Source of the DNA: Actinomycetota bacterium
GTDB lineage: Bacteria; Actinomycetota; Thermoleophilia; Gaiellales; Gaiellaceae
Assembly: GCA_003134505.1 (NCBI GenBank)
Contig: PLBK01000027.1
Coordinates: forward strand, 11,053 to 50,240
Reading direction: 5' to 3'
DNA: 39,188 nt
The notes below the pieces were generated by a model that was not told the DNA's origin, made no database searches, and saw nothing but the letters and a program-made list of their open reading frames with translations. The position numbers and the translations under genes were made by a program. This document shows, piece after piece, positions 13,194 to 23,648 of the stretch; position 1 is the first letter of the stretch; every line of letters starts with the position of its first letter.

Positions 13194-15227
13194 ATGAGCT
13201 CGACCGTGCCGTACCCGCGCCTGTTCTCGGAGTGGAAGATCCGGAACACGACGGTCGCGAACCGGATCGTGTTCGCGCCGACCTGCCCGACCTGGGTCGC
13301 CGATCCGTACGAAGGCGTGTTCACGGACCAGGCCGTCGCGTACTACGAGGAGCGCGCCAAGGGCGGCTGCGGCCTGATCATCATCGGCGGCACGATCATC
13401 CACAAGGAGGCGCTCTACTCCGAGTTCAACTTCCCGGGCCTGTGGAAGGACGACCAGGTGGCCGGGCTGGCGAAGGTCGCGGACGCCGTCCACCGGCACG
13501 GGTGCAAGCTCGCCTGCCAGCTCCTGCACGTGGGCCTCCGCGCGACGCCCGTGTTGAAGAAGGACCCCGCCTACGACTTCGACGCCGAGTGGTACATGGT
13601 CGCGCCGAGCCAGGTCCCGCCCGGCGAGTACCCGAACGCGCCGATGCCGAAGGAGCTCGAGGAGCACGAGATCGAGGAGATCCTCGGCGCCTACGAGTCG
13701 TCAGCTCGGCGGGCGATCGCGGCCGGACTGGACGGTGTCGAGTTCCACATGTCGCACGGCTACCTGCCCTGGCAGTTCCTGTCGCCGCTCTACAACCACC
13801 GCACCGACCGCTGGGGCGGCTCGTACGAGAACCGTCTGCGCTTCCCGCTCGAGGCGATGAGCAGGATCCGGTCGGCGATCGGCGACGAGCCGTTCCTCGG
13901 CTACCGGATCAACTCGACCTCGTTCTGGCCCGGCGACCTGGAGCTGGAGGACGTGAAGCAGATCGTCGCCGACTTCGAGTCCAGATCCGACGTCGACTAC
14001 GTCAACCTCTCGGCGGGCGTCCATCACTCGTACATCCACACGCCGATGACGTACGAGCCGGGCTGGGAGCGCGGCTACACGAAGGCGGTCAAGGAGGTCT
14101 CGTCGAAGCCGGTGCTGCTGGTCGGGCGGATCACGCACCCGAAGATCGCCGAGGAGATCCTCGCCGCCGACGAGGCGGACGCGATCCTGCTCGCGCGTCA
14201 GTTGTTCGCCGATGCCGAGTGGGGAGCGAAGGCGCGCGAGGGCCGGGCCGACGACATCCGCCGCTGCGTCGCCGCCAACTACTGCTGGCGGAGCGTGATC
14301 CGGGGCGGCCGAGTGCAGTGCGTCTACAACCCGGAGGTGGGCCGCGAGGCGCGCTGGGGGTCGGGGACGCTCGTCGCCGCCGACGAGGCGAAGCGGGCGC
14401 TCGTGATTGGTGCTGGCCCGGCCGGGCTCGAGTACGCGCGGGTCGCAGCAGCGCGGGGCCACGAGGTGGTCGTCCTCGAGCGCGAGGACGAGGTCGGCGG
14501 CCATGTGCGGTGGCAGTCGCTGCTCCCGGGCCGCAAGGAGTACGGGCAGATCGCCCGCTGGCTGCTGGCGCAGGCGCAGGGAAACGGGGCGACGATCCGG
14601 ACCGGGGAGGAGGTGACGGCAGACAGCATCGGTGCCCTCCTCGAGGCGGAGCGGCCCGACCACGTCGTCGTCTCGACCGGCGCCCGCTACCGCCGCGACG
14701 GGTGGCAGGGGCAGACGGCGGCGCCGCTTCCGGGCTGGGAGACAGCCAATTGCGCGACCTGGGACGAGGTCGTCACCGGCAAGGTCTCACCCTCGGGCTC
14801 CGTCCTCGTCCTCGACGACCTGCAGGACGTGGCGGCGCCCCTGACGGCGGTCAAGCTCGCGCAGGAGGGTGCGTCCGTGCGGCTCGTCACGCGCTGGCCG
14901 ATGATCGGGATGGAGACGATCCCGGAGGTCTACTACCTCTGGGTGCGCCAGCAGCTCTACGAGGCCGGCGTCTCCGTCGAGCCGGACCTGTTCGTGACGG
15001 GCATCGACGGCACCGAGGTCACGCTGATCAACGTCTACGTGCCGGATCGCGTGACCACGATCGAGGCGGACTGGATCGTCATGGTCACGGGCCGCCAGTC
15101 CGAGAACGGGCTGTACCACCTGCTCCGAGAGCGGGGGGTCACCGTCGAGACGATCGGCGACGCGACGGCTCCCCGCTCGACGTACGAGGCGGTCTTCGAG
15201 GGCCACCGGCAGGCGCGGAAGCTCTGA
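13194..15227 (+). CDS. OYE/2,4-dienoyl-CoA reductase-like flavoprotein
   Basis: Two-module oxidoreductase (677 aa) like 2,4-dienoyl-CoA reductase and trimethylamine dehydrogenase. Residues 1-345 form an FMN-binding old yellow enzyme TIM barrel (RIVFAPTCPTW, EFHMSHGYLPWQFLSP, HRTDRWGGSYENRLRFPLE). A small iron-sulfur segment follows at 356-382. Residues 395-677 form FAD/NAD(P)-binding domains (ALVIGAGPAGLEYARVAA; GHEVVVLEREDEVGGHV). In the cluster segment the ligands are Cys358, Cys364 and Cys376, but the second canonical Cys (CxxC in TMADH) is Ala361, so a normal 4Fe-4S cluster lacks one Cys ligand. The substrate is unknown. The ATG at 13194 follows the CBS gene after 52 nt. Confidence 0.92.
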   Translation: MSSTVPYPRLFSEWKIRNTTVANRIVFAPTCPTWVADPYEGVFTDQAVAYYEERAKGGCGLIIIGGTIIHKEALYSEFNFPGLWKDDQVAGLAKVADAVHRHGCKLACQLLHVGLRATPVLKKDPAYDFDAEWYMVAPSQVPPGEYPNAPMPKELEEHEIEEILGAYESSARRAIAAGLDGVEFHMSHGYLPWQFLSPLYNHRTDRWGGSYENRLRFPLEAMSRIRSAIGDEPFLGYRINSTSFWPGDLELEDVKQIVADFESRSDVDYVNLSAGVHHSYIHTPMTYEPGWERGYTKAVKEVSSKPVLLVGRITHPKIAEEILAADEADAILLARQLFADAEWGAKAREGRADDIRRCVAANYCWRSVIRGGRVQCVYNPEVGREARWGSGTLVAADEAKRALVIGAGPAGLEYARVAAARGHEVVVLEREDEVGGHVRWQSLLPGRKEYGQIARWLLAQAQGNGATIRTGEEVTADSIGALLEAERPDHVVVSTGARYRRDGWQGQTAAPLPGWETANCATWDEVVTGKVSPSGSVLVLDDLQDVAAPLTAVKLAQEGASVRLVTRWPMIGMETIPEVYYLWVRQQLYEAGVSVEPDLFVTGIDGTEVTLINVYVPDRVTTIEADWIVMVTGRQSENGLYHLLRERGVTVETIGDATAPRSTYEAVFEGHRQARKL

Positions 15228-17599: not shown

Positions 17600-17809
17600 C
17601 TAGCCTCCGATGGCGACGACGTTGGTCGCCTCCGGGCCCTTTGCGCCCTCGCGGACCTCGAACTCGACCTTCTGGCCTTCGTTCAGGGACTTGTAGCCCT
17701 CGCCTGCGATCTGCGAGTGATGGACGAAGACGTCCTTCGTCTCACCGTCGGGCGTGATGAATCCATAGCCCTTCGAGTTGTTGAACCACTTGACGGTACC
17801 GGTAGCCAT
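17600..17809 (-). CDS. Cold shock protein (CspA family)
   Basis: A 69-residue single OB-fold protein that binds single-stranded RNA/DNA and acts as an RNA chaperone. [20 protein letters not shown] holds RNP1 (KGYGFI) and DVFVHHSQI is RNP2 (VFVHHS); [23 protein letters not shown] closes the barrel. The ATG at 17809 is chosen because the family begins M-A-T-G-T-V-K-W; the frame continues 28 codons upstream without similarity. AGGGGAG about 12 nt upstream may be the ribosome site. A leader of about 80 nt is likely (box at 17900-17895), as for many cold shock genes. Its TAG stop lies 4 nt before the AUC of infA, so the two are coupled. Confidence 0.96.
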
Positions 17810-17894
17810 GTGAAGAGCACGCTCCCCTTGATCTTGAACGGTAAGGAGGCGCCGATGACGGCTCCGCCGGTTACTCGTTCTGTTTGTCGCCACC

Positions 17895-17924: not shown

Positions 17925-18728
17925 TCAGTTTCGCCTCGGAAACCAGGGCACGAAGATCGAGGTCTCCTGCTGGTAGCGGCGGTAGTCCTCGCCGCGGCTG
18001 CGGAGCGCCTGCTCCTCCGTCGGCGGGATGCCGGTGATCGTGAACAGGAGGCCGAGCAGGAGCGCCGGCGTCATCCAGCCGAGCCAGCCCCAGGGAGCGG
18101 CCGTCGCGATCAGGCCCCACCCGACCCAGAGCGTCCACTCGAAGAAGTAGTTGGGGTGGCGCGAGTAGCGCCAGAGCCCCGCGCGGCAGGTCGTGCCCCT
18201 GTTGGCCGGGTTCGCGCGCCAGCGGCGGAGCTGTCGGTCGGAGAGGACGTTCAGCGTCAGCCCGACGACCCAGAGCATGGTCCCGGCGATCTCGAGCGGC
18301 TGGATGCTGCCGTGCGGGTTGTAGGCGTCGAGCAGCATCGGCACGGCGAAGCAAACGACGAGCAGGGCCTGGCCCTGGAAGAAGACGAAGAACCAGAAGT
18401 TCACGCTGATGCCGCGCTCGGTCCAGCGGCGGCGCATGTCCAGGTAGCGGCCGTCCTCGCCCTCGTGGCCGAGCATGCGGTCGACGACGAGATAGGTGCC
18501 GAGCCGCAGGCTCCAGAGGCCGGCCAGGACGCCGACGAGGATGCGATGGCACGCCGCGCCGTCGCCCACGATCGCGTAGACGACGCCGAGGATCCCGATC
18601 TCGTACGCCCAGCCGATGTCCACCTGCGTGGCATTCCGGGTGCGCACCTGCACGAGCCAGAGGACGGTCATCGCCGCCGCCGCGATGCCGGCGCCGATGG
18701 CGAGCGCGATCCATGGGCTTTCGATCAT
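17925..18728 (-). CDS. DUF1295 (steroid 5-alpha-reductase-like) membrane protein
   Basis: A 267-residue integral membrane protein of the DUF1295/isoprenylcysteine methyltransferase-like fold, a family that includes NAD(P)H-dependent reductases of lipid or steroid double bonds. Six to seven hydrophobic segments are visible. The C-terminal signature [23 protein letters not shown] is diagnostic (LW-x-x-SRHPNYF-x-E), as is [19 protein letters not shown] at the end. It is the last of five genes that overlap one another by 4 nt (stop of plsC to ATG here at 18725-18728). In this setting it is inferred to act on a fatty acyl chain. Confidence 0.9.
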
Positions 18729-19354
18729 TCGTACCAGGCGTGGTCGGGCTCACCATACGGCTCGCGCAGCTCGCCGATCGCCTGCTCGAGCCGTTCGGTC
18801 AGCTCGGCTGCGGCTTCCCTCGTCGGCTCCTGCCGCTCGACGCGAAGCGGGTTGCCGACGACGATCGTCACCTGCGGGAAGCCGATCCTGTGCGTGCGCG
18901 GCTGGATCGACCGCTCCGTGCCGACGAGCAGGACCGGCACGAGCGGCGCACCGGCCGCGAGCGCGAGCCGCGCAGCGCCGCGATGGAACCGGCGCTCGCG
19001 GTGAGGAAGGCACGTCCCCTGCGGGAAGATCCCGATCACCTCGCCCCGGTCGAGCACGTCGAGACCGGCATCGACCGCCCGGCCCAGGTCGCTGCCCCGG
19101 CGGACGGGGATGCAGCCGAGCCCTTCCAGGACCTGCTTCAGCACCGGGTAGCGGAAGAGCTCGGCCTTCGTCATGTAGTGCACCGGTCGGGGCGAGACCG
19201 TGCCCAGGAACCAGGGGTCGAGGATGGACTCGTGATTCGGCGCGAGCACGACCGGGCCGTTCGCAGGAATCTTCTCGGCGTCCAGGTGCCGGATCTTGTA
19301 GGCACGCATCATCGGCCCGCGCGTCAGGCGGTCAATCGCCGGATAGAGATTCAT
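18725..19354 (-). CDS. 1-acyl-sn-glycerol-3-phosphate acyltransferase (PlsC-like)
   Basis: Membrane-associated acyltransferase (209 aa) for the sn-2 position of lysophosphatidate or a related acceptor. The catalytic motif is complete: APNHESILDPWF has His-x4-Asp. FPQGTC at about residues 110-115 corresponds to FPEGTR with Glu-to-Gln and Arg-to-Cys changes; VPVRRGSD and APLVPVLLVGTE are motifs II and IV. Without a transmembrane helix it is probably a peripheral protein. It lies between the CFA-like methyltransferase and DUF1295 with 4-nt overlaps on both sides, suggesting it feeds the modified acyl chain into, or receives it from, phospholipids. Confidence 0.92.
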   Translation of the reverse strand: MNLYPAIDRLTRGPMMRAYKIRHLDAEKIPANGPVVLAPNHESILDPWFLGTVSPRPVHYMTKAELFRYPVLKQVLEGLGCIPVRRGSDLGRAVDAGLDVLDRGEVIGIFPQGTCLPHRERRFHRGAARLALAAGAPLVPVLLVGTERSIQPRTHRIGFPQVTIVVGNPLRVERQEPTREAAAELTERLEQAIGELREPYGEPDHAWYE

Positions 19355-20568
19355 CGCTCGAGGACGAGCTGGGTGTCGCGGAGCGCCCGTGTGCGGAAGC
19401 CGGCCTCGCAGGAGGCGAGGTAGAAGTCCCAGGTGCGGACGAAGTGGTCGTCGTAGCCGAGTGCGCGCACGTCAGCCAGCCGCTCGTGGAAGGTCGTCCG
19501 CCAGCGGCGCAGCGTCTCGGCGTAGTTCAGGCCGATCTCCTCGACGTTCGCGAGCGTGAGGCGGGACGCCTCGCCCATCGCCTGTCGGAGAGCGCCGAGC
19601 GACGGGATCAGGCAGCCCGGGAAGACGTAGCGCTCGATCCAGTCGGGCGAGCGGCGGTAGCGGTCCCAGCGATGGTCGGGGATCAGGATCGCCTGGATGC
19701 AGGCCCGGCCCCCGGGCGCGAGCAGCCGGTCGCACGCGGAGAAGAAGGCCGGGAACTGCTTCTCGCCGATCGCCTCGATCATCTCGATCGACGCCAGCCT
19801 CGTGTACGAGCCCCGGTGCACGCGGTAGTCCTCCTCGACGATGCTGATCCGGCTCTCGAGGCCCGCTTCGCGCACCCGATCGCGAGCCAGCTCGGCCTGG
19901 GCGGGGGAGAGGGTGAGGCCGGTGACGCGGGCGCCGTAGTCGCCTGCCGCCGTGAGCGCGAACGAGCCCCAGCCGCAGCCGATCTCGAGCACGTGGTCGC
20001 GGGGCGTGAGCTCGAGCTTGTCGCAGACCCGGCGCAGCTTGCGCCGCTGCGCGTCGACGAGTGGCTCGTCCGGTCGCTCGAAGATCGCGCACGAGTAGGT
20101 CATCGTCTCGTCCAGCAGCAGCCGGAAGAGCTCGTTGCCGAGGTCGTAGTGGTACTCGATGTTGCGCCGCGCGCGGAGCAGTCCCTGGCGCCGGTTCGGG
20201 CGCGGGCGGGCCTTCATCACGCGGGCGAGGCGCGGATGGCGCGCGACGGCCGCCTCGGCGTTGCGGTAGAGGAGCTCCAGGAGCCCCACGACGTCCGGGC
20301 TCGTCCACTCGGCGGCCTGGTACGACTCGCCGAGGCCGATCGTCCCGCGCGTGGCCAGGCGACGGATCAGGCTCGGCAGGTCGGCGATCTCCATCGTCTG
20401 CGGCGGCCCGTTGCCGAACGTCCGCTCGGTCCCGTCCGGCAGGCGGGCGACGAGCGTGCCCTCGTCGAGCCCGGCGAGCGCGCGCGTGAGCAGCCGGACC
20501 GCGACCCGCTCGAGCAGGCCGCCGCGGGCGGGCGGGATCTCGCGGACGGTGCGCTCGACGGTGCTCAC
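19351..20568 (-). CDS. CFA/UfaM-like fatty acyl methyltransferase
   Basis: SAM-dependent enzyme acting on the double bond of phospholipid acyl chains (405 aa; COG2230). The N-terminal lipid-binding domain covers about 1-130. The methyltransferase starts at NIEYHYDLGNELFRLLLDETMTYSC, with Cys160 matching Cys139 of E. coli CFA synthase. LEIGCGWGSF (194-203) binds SAM, and IEMIEAIGEK contains the bicarbonate-ligand Glu265. The His that completes the bicarbonate site in E. coli (His266) is Gln292 here (ACIQAI). That is typical of the clade beside COG2907/DUF1365 genes, whose product may be a methylated rather than cyclopropane chain. GTG start overlapping DUF1365 by 4 nt. Confidence 0.9.
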   Translation of the reverse strand: MSTVERTVREIPPARGGLLERVAVRLLTRALAGLDEGTLVARLPDGTERTFGNGPPQTMEIADLPSLIRRLATRGTIGLGESYQAAEWTSPDVVGLLELLYRNAEAAVARHPRLARVMKARPRPNRRQGLLRARRNIEYHYDLGNELFRLLLDETMTYSCAIFERPDEPLVDAQRRKLRRVCDKLELTPRDHVLEIGCGWGSFALTAAGDYGARVTGLTLSPAQAELARDRVREAGLESRISIVEEDYRVHRGSYTRLASIEMIEAIGEKQFPAFFSACDRLLAPGGRACIQAILIPDHRWDRYRRSPDWIERYVFPGCLIPSLGALRQAMGEASRLTLANVEEIGLNYAETLRRWRTTFHERLADVRALGYDDHFVRTWDFYLASCEAGFRTRALRDTQLVLER

Positions 20569-21305
20569 TGCTTCAGCGATCCCTTGCCCGGCTCGAACGG
20601 CGGCTTGTGGTGGAAGGGCACGCGCTTGGCCCAGAGCTTGACCGCCTGCCAGTGGATCAGCGCGGTGACCTGCATGGGCATGAGCGGGTAGCGGACGAGC
20701 GCGCCGGCTAGCGTCGCGTTCGTGAGCTCCTTGCGGTGGCCGTGGATGACGGCGCTCAGCGGCACGCGTCCGTTCTCGCGGACGTGCACGCGCGCCCAGA
20801 CCTCCTCTTTCGGCTCCGAGAACGCGTACTGGTAATCCTGGTCGAGCCCGAAGAACGGCGAGACGTGGAGGTGCTTCTCGTGCTCGTACGTGAGCGCCGG
20901 CCCGTGCAGGAGCTCCGGCAGCCGCTCGCCGAACGTGTTGTTGAGCTCGGCGATCATCGCCGTGAGCTTCCCGTCCGGGCCGTAGCACCAGTGGAAGCTG
21001 ACCGGGTTGAACACGTAGCCGAGGACGCGGAGTTGCGCGAGCATGAGCACGCTTTCGACCTCGACGCCGCGCTCGGCGCAGAAGCGGACGGCCGCCTCCT
21101 TGACCGGGAGCGAGCCGTCGAAGTGATCCTTGTCGCGCAGCGTGACGACGTTCGGGCTGTTGATCGAGAACAGCGCCAGGCGCCGCTCGAGCTCGGGCAG
21201 CTCGTCGAGGTCGAGCACGAAGAAGGAGATCGGATAGCGGAACGAGTTGCGCGCCGGCTCGCGCCGCGAGTGGACGAGCGTGCCGTTGTAGATCGCCGAT
21301 CTCAC
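20565..21305 (-). CDS. DUF1365 protein
   Basis: A 246-residue protein of the DUF1365 family (COG3496), which nearly always sits next to a COG2907 flavoprotein and a CFA-like methyltransferase; no biochemical role is established. Family blocks: SAIYNGTLVHSRREPARNSFRYPISFFVLDLDELP at the N-terminus, LGYVFNPVSFHWCYGPDGKLTAMIAELNNTFGER in the middle, EKHLHVSPFFGLDQDYQYAF and HGHRKELTN later. Conserved His and Trp residues suggest an enzymatic or lipid-binding site. The GTG start at 21305 overlaps the flavoprotein stop (GTGA), and its own stop overlaps the methyltransferase start in the same way. Confidence 0.92.
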   Translation of the reverse strand: MRSAIYNGTLVHSRREPARNSFRYPISFFVLDLDELPELERRLALFSINSPNVVTLRDKDHFDGSLPVKEAAVRFCAERGVEVESVLMLAQLRVLGYVFNPVSFHWCYGPDGKLTAMIAELNNTFGERLPELLHGPALTYEHEKHLHVSPFFGLDQDYQYAFSEPKEEVWARVHVRENGRVPLSAVIHGHRKELTNATLAGALVRYPLMPMQVTALIHWQAVKLWAKRVPFHHKPPFEPGKGSLKQ

Positions 21306-22513
21306 CAGTCGACTCCGAGGAGCGCCGCGGCGCGGACGGCCGAGGCGAGCCCGTCCTCGTGGAACCCGTTGCCGAGGTGCGCTCCGGCGTAGAGCGTGTG
21401 GCGGGCGCCGTTCAGCTCGCCGATCTCGCGCTGGCCGCGCAACGTGTCGAGCGTGTAGAGCGGATGGTCGTACACGGTTCGCATGATCACGCGCTCCGGG
21501 TCGATCTCGTCGCCGCGGTTCAGGGTCACGCAGTAGTGCTGGTCGGCGTCGAGGCGCTGCAGCCGGTTCAGGTAATAGGTGACGGTCGGCTTCACGGAGC
21601 CGTTCACCTGGTAGTTCCACGAGGCGCGCGCGGCGCGGGCGTGGGGGAGGAAGCGCTCGTCCGTGTGCAGGACGGTCTCGTTGGCGGTGTAGCGGAAGGC
21701 GGTGAGCGCGCTTCGCTCCTCGTCGGAGGGATCGGTGAGCAGGGCGAGCGCCTGGTCGGCGTGCGTGGCGATCACGGCCTTGTCGAAGCGGCGGGTCTCG
21801 CCGTCGTTCGTCGTGAGCTCGACGCCGTGCGGTGTGCGGGTGACGGCGCGGGCTCCGAGACCGATGTGGGCCGGACCGCGGAGCCGGTCGAGCAGCGCCT
21901 CGACGTAGCGGCGGCTGCCCCCCGAGACGGTGCGCCAGGGAGATCGCCCGAACCCGAGCATCCCGTGATGGTCGAAGAAGCGGATCGCATACGCGGCCGG
22001 GAAGTCGAGCGCCCGCTCCGGCGCCGTCGACCACAGCGACGAGGTGAGCGGCACGAGGAAGTGCGTGCGGAACCGCTCCGAATAGCCGTGTCTCTCCACG
22101 TACTGTCCGAGGGTCAGACCCTCGGACATGTCCAGCGTGGACACGGCGGTTCGGAGCCAGCGGGTCACTTCGAGCAGGAACCGGTGGAAGCGCGGGCTGG
22201 CGACGTTCCGCGCCTGGGCGAACGGGCGGCGGCCGGACCACTCGAGGCCGCAGTCACCGCAGGCGACCGAGAACGACATCTCCGACTCCTGGACGCCCAC
22301 GCCGAGCTCCCGGAACAGCCGGCCGAGGTACGGGTAGTTCGGCGTGTTGTGGACGATGAAGCCCGTGTCGAGCCCGAGGCCGGCGTGCTCGACGGTGTTG
22401 ACGTGGCCGCCGGGGCGCGTGTCCTTCTCGAACAGCTCGACCTCGTGCGCGCGCGAGAGCACGTACGCAGCGCCCAGCCCGGCCACGCCAGATCCGATCA
22501 CGGCGATCTTCAT
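21302..22513 (-). CDS. COG2907 FAD-dependent amine oxidase-like protein
   Basis: Flavoprotein of the amine oxidase/phytoene desaturase fold (403 aa from the ATG at 22513; a second ATG lies at 22519). KIAVIGSGVAGLGAAYVLSRAHEVELFEKD binds FAD. GGHVNTVEHAGLGLDTGFIVHNTPNYPYL is the hallmark of COG2907. The C-terminus has the ETVLHTDERFLP and LYAGAHLGNGFHEDGLASA blocks. In furan fatty acid clusters of alphaproteobacteria a flavoprotein of this neighbourhood desaturates methylated acyl chains (recalled, not tested here). It heads the five-gene run. A perfect 25-bp palindrome lies within its coding sequence at 22104-22128. Confidence 0.92.
   Translation of the reverse strand: MKIAVIGSGVAGLGAAYVLSRAHEVELFEKDTRPGGHVNTVEHAGLGLDTGFIVHNTPNYPYLGRLFRELGVGVQESEMSFSVACGDCGLEWSGRRPFAQARNVASPRFHRFLLEVTRWLRTAVSTLDMSEGLTLGQYVERHGYSERFRTHFLVPLTSSLWSTAPERALDFPAAYAIRFFDHHGMLGFGRSPWRTVSGGSRRYVEALLDRLRGPAHIGLGARAVTRTPHGVELTTNDGETRRFDKAVIATHADQALALLTDPSDEERSALTAFRYTANETVLHTDERFLPHARAARASWNYQVNGSVKPTVTYYLNRLQRLDADQHYCVTLNRGDEIDPERVIMRTVYDHPLYTLDTLRGQREIGELNGARHTLYAGAHLGNGFHEDGLASAVRAAALLGVDW
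22104..22128. repeat. Perfect 25-bp palindrome inside the flavoprotein gene
   Basis: TGTCCGAGGGTC and GACCCTCGGACA are exact reverse complements around a central A. The core GGGTCAGACCC is the same as in the two repeats at 23672-23700 and 23799-23825, so this could be a repeat core absorbed into coding sequence, where it reads as DMSEGLTLG. Confidence 0.6.
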
Positions 22514-22566
22514 CGACATCCGAACCGGTATTCGATCAGGGCCGAAGATCGGTTGTCGAGTGCTTC

Positions 22567-22640
22567 GAACCCGTTTCAAGGCGATGCTTCGCCGTCCAGC
22601 GCACCCCGACGGTCATCAAGCTTCGTCTGGAGACGGGTTC
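22567..22640. promoter_or_regulatory. Inverted operator-like sites in the desaturase/flavoprotein divergence
   Basis: GAACCCGTTTC (22567-22577) and GAGACGGGTTC (22630-22640) are inverted copies matching at 10 of 11 positions, 52 nt apart. They lie between the starts of the five-gene lipid operon and the desaturase, where a looping or dimeric regulator could control both. The right copy ends 22 nt before the TAGACT box of the desaturase. Confidence 0.45.
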
Positions 22641-22662
22641 ATACAGGATCATGCCGCTTCCG

Positions 22663-22668
22663 TAGACT
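22663..22668 (+). promoter_or_regulatory. -10 box, leaderless desaturase gene
   Basis: TAGACT ends 8 nt before the ATG at 22677, without a Shine-Dalgarno. Confidence 0.5.
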
Positions 22669-22676
22669 GGTCCGAA

Positions 22677-23648
22677 ATGGAGATCGCTGAGCAGAGCACG
22701 CCCGCCGTCGGCACCGTCCGCGCCCGGACGAGCCGGATCAGCCAGGTGGTGACTCTGATCGCGGTGATCGTGCCGCCGCTCGGGATCGTCTCGGCGATGG
22801 GCCTGCTCTGGGGCGTCGCGTTCCACTGGGTCGACGTGGTCGTCCTCCTCGCCTCGTACACCGTGTGCGCGTTCGGCACGACGATCGGCTTCCACCGATA
22901 CTTCTCGCACAAGAGCTTCCAGTCTGGCCCAGGCGTCAAGGCCGTCCTGGCGATCCTCGGCTGCATGACCGTTCAGGGCCCGCTTACGCAGTGGGTGACC
23001 GACCACCGCAAGCACCACGCCTTCTCGGACAAGGAGGGTGACCCGCACTCGCCGCACGCCGGCCACGACGGCGAAGGCCCGTGGGACGCGTTCAGGGGTT
23101 TCGTGCACGCGCACGTCGGCTGGATGTTCTCCAACATGGGCATGGAGCAGGGGCGCGAGTACGGCAAGGACCTGTACGAGGACCGGCTGATCAGGTGGAT
23201 CGACCGGCTCTACCTCGTCTGGGTCGGGCTGACGCTCGGGATTCCGTTCGCCATCGGCTACGGGCTCGGCGGCACCCGTCTCGGCCTCGAGGCGCTCGTC
23301 TGGGGCGGGTTGATCCGGATCTTCCTCTACCAGCACGCCACCTTCGCGGTGAACTCGATCTGCCACATGTTCGGCCGGCAGGACTATCGCGCGCGTGACG
23401 AGTCGCGGAACAACTGGCTCGTCGCCTTCATGGTCTTCGGCGAGGGCTGGCACAACAACCACCACGCGTTCCCGTCCTCGGCTCGTCACGGCCTCGCCTG
23501 GTGGCAGTACGACCTGTCCTGGTGGATCATCCGCGGGCTCGAGAAGGTCGGCCTCGCGTGGGACGTGAAGCTCCCGACGGCGGAGCAGATGCAGCGCCGC
23601 CGCGTCGCGCCGGTCGAGCGGCCCGCGTCCGAGCCCGCCAGCGCTTAG
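22677..23648 (+). CDS. Acyl-CoA/acyl-lipid desaturase (delta-9 type)
   Basis: Membrane di-iron fatty acyl desaturase (323 aa), expected to introduce a cis double bond, probably at carbon 9, using O2. The three His boxes are complete: HRYFSH (73-78), HRKHH (110-114) and HNNHH (259-263), the last in GEGWHNNHHAFPSSARHG. Hydrophobic pairs flank them (VTLIAVIVPPLGIVSAMGLLWG; VVVLLASYTVCAFGTTIG; around 183-197). The start at 22677 follows a TAGACT box by 8 nt, so the mRNA is likely leaderless. It diverges from the operon with the CFA-like methyltransferase, so it probably supplies the double bond those enzymes modify. Confidence 0.96.
   Translation: MEIAEQSTPAVGTVRARTSRISQVVTLIAVIVPPLGIVSAMGLLWGVAFHWVDVVVLLASYTVCAFGTTIGFHRYFSHKSFQSGPGVKAVLAILGCMTVQGPLTQWVTDHRKHHAFSDKEGDPHSPHAGHDGEGPWDAFRGFVHAHVGWMFSNMGMEQGREYGKDLYEDRLIRWIDRLYLVWVGLTLGIPFAIGYGLGGTRLGLEALVWGGLIRIFLYQHATFAVNSICHMFGRQDYRARDESRNNWLVAFMVFGEGWHNNHHAFPSSARHGLAWWQYDLSWWIIRGLEKVGLAWDVKLPTAEQMQRRRVAPVERPASEPASA

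Follow-up and report, generated by a model that had tools for sequence, protein, structure and literature searches.

Known furan fatty acid pathways and the layout of the locus

The best described route to furan fatty acids (FuFAs) is that of Rhodobacter sphaeroides, in which UfaM methylates cis-vaccenate, the flavoprotein UfaD (RSP1091) yields 11Me-10t,12t-18:2, and the DUF1365 protein UfaO (RSP1090) forms the furan acid 9M5 with oxygen taken from O2; in Rhodopseudomonas palustris, RPA2571-2570-2569 are ufaD-ufaO-ufaM and their products make FuFA (PMC7380195). Rhodobacter FuFA is consumed by singlet oxygen and is required for ChrR turnover (PMC7380195, PMC6852236). A further methyltransferase, FufM (RPA0924 in R. 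palustris, 38% identical to plant LIME1), makes dimethyl-FuFA. Here, a six-gene locus with the same three core families, in the same order as RPA2571-2569, is described from an uncultured member of the Gaiellaceae (Actinomycetota, class Thermoleophilia). It lies at positions 17925-23648 of a stretch of 39,188 nucleotides, hereafter the window (assembly GCA_003134505.1, contig PLBK01000027.1, positions 11,053 to 50,240). Homology, gene order and an active-site signature suggested that it is a FuFA biosynthesis operon, a reading to which we give a probability of about 0.8.

Two other systems are close enough for comparison. BfaAB of Mycobacterium chlorophenolicum produces 10-methylstearate from 18:1 delta-9 (PMC5660069) and, like the window, has a CFA-family methyltransferase beside a flavoprotein in an operon with a 4-nt overlap. 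However, BfaA is described as a reductase linked to flavin adenine dinucleotide (FAD), whereas the window flavoprotein is of the amine-oxidase/phytoene-desaturase type and has a UfaO partner. In Chlamydomonas, singlet oxygen induces, in a SAK1-dependent manner, CFA1, CFA2/CPLD27 (annotated as a coclaurine N-methyltransferase) and two genes of the DUF1365 and DUF1295 families, one of each (PMC4067076, Tables 5 and 9). They represent the same families as UfaM/UfaD, FufM, UfaO and DUF1295, and so tie these independently to photo-oxidative stress. These genes are eukaryotic, dispersed and not arranged in an operon, and the part of PMC4067076 that lists them does not tie them to FuFAs.

In the window, five minus-strand genes encoding, in transcriptional order, UfaD, UfaO, UfaM, a PlsC-type acyltransferase and a DUF1295 membrane protein follow one another with a 4-nt stop/start overlap at each of the four junctions (21302-21305, 20565-20568, 19351-19354 and 18725-18728), which are common in bacterial operons and by themselves unremarkable. 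A desaturase gene diverges from them, and all six products were identified by Pfam matches over cut-off. An earlier note, made from the sequence alone, had listed these genes and overlaps and proposed a lipid-modification operon linked to FuFAs. Its gene calls were confirmed, the operon reading is supported, and the furan link was right, the roles of its COG2907-type flavoprotein, DUF1365 protein and CMAS-family methyltransferase now being those of UfaD, UfaO and UfaM (PMC7380195). Its suggestion of an uncharacterised lipid can at best hold for a positional isomer, the core chemistry having already been published. Relative to the Rhodobacter and R. palustris pathway, the window adds PlsC, DUF1295 and the divergent desaturase, its substrate is probably a delta-9 instead of a delta-11 monoene, no sigma-E/ChrR gene was seen beside the operon and the promoter element differs.

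The proposed pathway would begin with the formation of a cis-monoene by the divergent desaturase. UfaM would then methylate the phospholipid-bound monoene with S-adenosylmethionine (SAM) and shift the double bond without closing a cyclopropane ring, UfaD would oxidise the methylated chain to a methylated conjugated diene, and UfaO would add oxygen from O2 and close the ring. The predicted product is a monomethyl FuFA acting as a membrane scavenger of singlet oxygen, perhaps an isomer derived from 18:1 delta-9 instead of vaccenate. The three core steps have been shown experimentally for the Rhodobacter and Rhodopseudomonas homologues (PMC7380195).

Core enzymes and their conservation

The ufaM-type gene (19351-20568, minus strand, GTG start) encodes a predicted SAM methyltransferase of the CMAS family (PF02353, 265 bits). 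Its product was aligned to four cyclopropane or mycolate synthases of known structure, namely the CFA synthases of E. coli, Aquifex and Lactobacillus, and CmaA1. At six active-site positions all four read C-E-H-H-I-Y, while the window protein reads CEAQIY (C160, E265, A266, Q292, I294 and Y349), both histidines being replaced. Among the operon-linked UfaM proteins of the first set, window included, glutamine occupied the second His position in 81 of 81 and alanine the first in 80 of 81. The Rhodobacteraceae orthologues, encoded away from ufaDO, share this signature (SEAQIY in 7/7); two of those genomes also carry a second CMAS copy, which has CEHHIY. The additional actinobacterial loci agreed as well, apart from downstream paralogues: three loci (L238, L241 and L247) carry, 3' of UfaM, a second CMAS paralogue with an intermediate xEHQMY signature, which is neither a cyclopropane synthase nor UfaM. 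In a tree, the 104 sequences with the UfaM signature formed a single clade (support 0.965) with no outsiders. The enzyme, called CFA/UfaM-like in the earlier note, is of UfaM type and lacks the active-site signature of cyclopropane synthases.

The two histidines exchanged in UfaM are presumably part of the bicarbonate site of the family. In cyclopropane synthases, an active-site bicarbonate carries out the final deprotonation (PMC10491745), and loss of that site would fit methylation with migration of the double bond instead of ring closure. The exchange to Ala/Gln also offers a sequence test separating UfaM from cyclopropane synthases, two groups that database names confuse.

For ufaD (21302-22519, minus strand), the mechanically called open reading frame (ORF) begins at a TTG at 22579, and the ATG at 22519 was taken as the start. 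The product, a predicted methyl-acyl desaturase forming a conjugated diene, is of the COG2907 kind and matched PF01593 and PF13450 over cut-off, in libraries that did not include COG2907. The glycines of the FAD motif were invariant across the UfaD set. The ufaO gene (20565-21305, minus strand, GTG start; PF07103, 239 bits against a cut-off of 25) is the single DUF1365 copy of the window genome, and its product is predicted to be the furan-closing oxygenase. Its structural model (m0692b327ef0c; predicted local distance difference test, pLDDT, 97.5) displayed a beta-rich fold with C-terminal helices. The best structural matches, lipocalin/nitrobindin-like barrels, were too weak for a cofactor to be named. 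Invariant residues were H12, R14, K144 and V148-S149-P150, and the cofactor of the oxygenase could be sought at these residues and at the barrel.

DUF1365 was found in 141 of the 399 genomes drawn from the class, and nearly all complete loci inspected across the class displayed the order UfaD-UfaO-UfaM, with UfaD first. The triad is also conserved in Proteobacteria, although in Rhodobacterales UfaD and UfaO are paired and UfaM is encoded elsewhere. The set was patchy within the window's own family, occurring in 9 of the 37 genomes of the first sample, window genome included. The earlier note would have counted a gene set that is not kept together in relatives as a refutation; the synteny comparison showed that it is kept. 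Six further genomes from the family (L022, L023, L024, L027, L136 and L138) have the complete arrangement of desaturase, UfaD, UfaO, UfaM, PlsC and DUF1295, and the association is therefore not due to chance. No study of a FuFA operon in this lineage was found in the literature searched, and the subject has apparently not been worked on.

Predicted substrate supply, accessory genes and putative control region

The divergent desaturase was placed at 22677-23648 (plus strand; PF00487, 91.5 bits), the mechanical ORF from 22344 being too long. It is an SCD1-like acyl-CoA or acyl-lipid desaturase, predicted to be the source of the monoene substrate. Its best PDB match was acyl-CoA desaturase 1 (4ymk, E-value 1.3e-27), and its three His boxes (HRYFSH, HRKHH and HNNHH) are conserved. 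It is the sole PF00487 match of the window genome, a 2.8-Mb assembly that is 82% complete, in which the only FabA-like match reached 39.8 bits, far from its cut-off of 238. A delta-9 monoene is thus the likely substrate, probably 18:1 or 16:1 delta-9 and not cis-vaccenate; by analogy with the described chemistry, oleate would be converted to an isomer such as 8,11-epoxy-9-methyl-octadecadienoic acid. A divergent desaturase gene beside the triad was observed in the window's family and in f5, one other family of the class, and was not seen there in the other families examined.

In seven loci of the window's family (L021-L024, L026, L032 and L136), the cluster includes an additional methyltransferase, which was closest to coclaurine N-methyltransferases (6gkv, 228 bits, 1.6e-66). 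This match, the identity between FufM and LIME1 and the coclaurine annotation of the Chlamydomonas gene suggested that these relatives may make dimethyl-FuFA, a link drawn through the likeness to coclaurine N-methyltransferases and LIME1, FufM itself not having been aligned. The window genome seems to have no counterpart: no FufM-type gene is present at the locus, and a location elsewhere in the genome was rejected, ufaM being its only strong CMAS gene and all other CMAS matches reaching at most 34 bits. In the window, the place held by the FufM-like gene in several relatives is occupied by a cold-shock domain protein gene (17600-17893), directly 3' of DUF1295 and on the same strand.

The DUF1295 gene (17925-18728, minus strand; PF06966, 208 bits, and PF02544, 42 bits) encodes a membrane protein whose model (pLDDT 93) matched best the bacterial and human steroid 5-alpha-reductases 7c83 (PbSRD5A) and 7bw1 (SRD5A2), with a probability of 1.00 but weak E-values (0.017 and 0.058) and a template modelling score of about 0.54. 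A profile search retrieved 7c83 (E-value 6.5e-6), followed by sterol delta-14 reductase and ICMT methyltransferases. On these matches a C=C reductase is likelier than a methyltransferase, and the protein is probably an accessory NAD(P)H-dependent C=C reductase acting on an unsaturated or photo-oxidised chain. Candidate substrates would be the ene-dione formed from a furan acid and singlet oxygen, or the methylated alkene intermediate. Elsewhere in the window, a gene at 13194-15227 encodes a FadH/OYE-type FMN/FAD ene-reductase (PF00724, 240 bits).

The PlsC-type gene (18725-19354, minus strand; PF01553, 88.9 bits) probably encodes an accessory enzyme, predicted to attach acyl chains to phospholipid or to exchange them there. 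The FPEGT motif of such enzymes is changed to FPQGT in the window and in 10 of the 12 linked PlsC copies; the other of the two PF01553 genes of the window genome has MEGT. The earlier note had spoken of a version with its own PlsC and DUF1295 in this lineage. In our sample, PlsC stood beside the triad only in the window's family. DUF1295 is not peculiar to the lineage. The gene lies 3' of UfaM, sometimes with an extra methyltransferase or PlsC in between, not only in the window's family but also in the actinomycete families f35, f30 and f43 and in a Bdellovibrio bin. A Marinimicrobia bin has it upstream of ufaD, and two loci of family f5 (L176 and L179) have it next to FufM. Lineage specificity of DUF1295 was rejected on these grounds, which leaves PlsC and the divergent desaturase as the lineage-limited parts of the locus.

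Between ufaD and the desaturase, adjoining the ufaD start (22523-22554, minus strand), lies a perfect match to the dyad AACCG-N3-TTCG-N8-CGAA-N3-CGGTT, which contains CAACC-N16-CGAATA; 0.02 matches would be expected by chance in the window with up to three mismatches. It looks like a putative promoter of the leaderless, extracytoplasmic function (ECF) type or like a dyad operator. The core AACC-N16-CGAA was present at the ufaD start in 13 loci of the family among those with upstream sequence, against a background of 28 matches in 221,663 bases, both strands overall. No second site within three mismatches was found in the window genome, so that a regulon sharing the element was rejected and either a dedicated regulator or coincidence is possible.

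Two f35 actinomycete loci (L234 and L237) share the gene order UfaD-UfaO-UfaM-DUF1295 and continue directly with genes for SigK (292 and 301 bits against a cut-off of 226) and RskA, which suggests a link between FuFAs and the SigK stress response. The window operon differs in that neither SigK nor RskA adjoins it, and no sigma factor was found among the neighbouring genes examined. The best SigK-like ECF sigma factor of the genome (G000:C32:54185-54709, on another contig; 181 bits against the cut-off of 226) is a candidate for its regulator. The sigK gene of M. tuberculosis is subject to autoregulation from the Rv0449c promoter, and the signal of SigK was stated to be unknown (PMC7509140). The recurrence of DUF1295 and UfaD-UfaO-UfaM in SigK-RskA loci suggests an idea for this signal. 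The identities of the M. tuberculosis genes Rv0446c-Rv0449c are assumed here, with the SigK loci described above as a guide; a literature search yielded no paper on them.

Alternative explanations and meaning of the operon

Several points weigh against a FuFA operon. The lipid product and the regiospecificity of the desaturase are predictions. M. tuberculosis UfaA1 was reported to yield 10-methylstearate in vitro (cited in PMC5660069), so that furans may not be the outcome with every enzyme of UfaM type. The characterised UfaM, UfaO and UfaD were reached through Rhodobacteraceae orthologues and published reports, none of them having been aligned directly. Since the genome is 82% complete, the absence of other desaturases, of FabA and of FufM is provisional.

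The alternative that survives best accepts that the core makes FuFA and regards DUF1295 and PlsC as housekeeping genes merely sharing the transcript. Both families are broadly distributed, and each gene is absent from some loci of the window's family that keep the triad (DUF1295 from L028, L033 and L034, PlsC from L026 and L032). However, several groups have DUF1295 next to UfaD-UfaO-UfaM, and f5 has it next to FufM, the Chlamydomonas singlet-oxygen regulon includes a DUF1295 gene together with a DUF1365 gene (PMC4067076, listed genes), and the FPQGT motif of PlsC is unusual and unlike that of the other genomic copy. We consider this explanation possible, with odds clearly below even.

A methyl-branched fatty acid operon, in which UfaM and DUF1295 as the reductase (the role of BfaA in mycobacteria) would give a saturated mid-chain methyl acid while UfaD and UfaO serve a side branch or a minor product, appears unlikely. 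The reductase-like fold of DUF1295 speaks for it, as do the position of this gene 3' of UfaM in actinomycetes, where SigK/RskA follow in two loci, and the 10-methylstearate reported for M. tuberculosis UfaA1. On the other hand, the window flavoprotein matches the Amino_oxidase and NAD_binding_8 families, UfaD homologues of known function desaturate, UfaO is kept beside UfaD in nearly all loci while its sole known reaction is furan closure, and PMC5660069 argues that reduction is beyond the methyltransferases alone. A locus for ordinary cyclopropane fatty acids, its other genes being unrelated passengers, is very improbable and was rejected. In its favour, the methyltransferase matches CMAS/cyclopropane synthase models best in Pfam and NCBIfam and is clearly similar to E. 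coli CFA. Against it, the NCBIfam scores fall far under the curated cut-offs (267.6 against 600 and 249.6 against 400), both active-site histidines are replaced, nearly all loci have UfaD and UfaO linked to the methyltransferase, and this enzyme groups with UfaM in the tree.

With FuFA synthesis retained as the preferred function, the UfaD-UfaO-UfaM core is a pathway already known, and PlsC, DUF1295 and the desaturase are plausible additions to it. A more speculative proposal, which we consider improbable as a whole, is that the operon encodes a complete cycle in which a sacrificial lipid is made, used and repaired. The desaturase, UfaM, UfaD and UfaO would build an undescribed delta-9-derived FuFA, singlet oxygen would open it to a reactive ene-dione, DUF1295 would reduce this to a 1,4-dione, either harmless or able to re-close to the furan, and PlsC would swap the damaged chains. 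If so, DUF1295 would be a general, unrecognised fourth enzyme of FuFA metabolism in bacteria and algae. Its recurrence beside UfaD-UfaO-UfaM, in SigK-RskA loci and in the green-algal singlet-oxygen regulon makes a role in furan lipids directly testable. FuFAs are established scavengers of singlet oxygen in phototrophic bacteria; the pathway is now seen conserved in non-model actinobacteria, where it carries genes for its substrate and possibly for repair.

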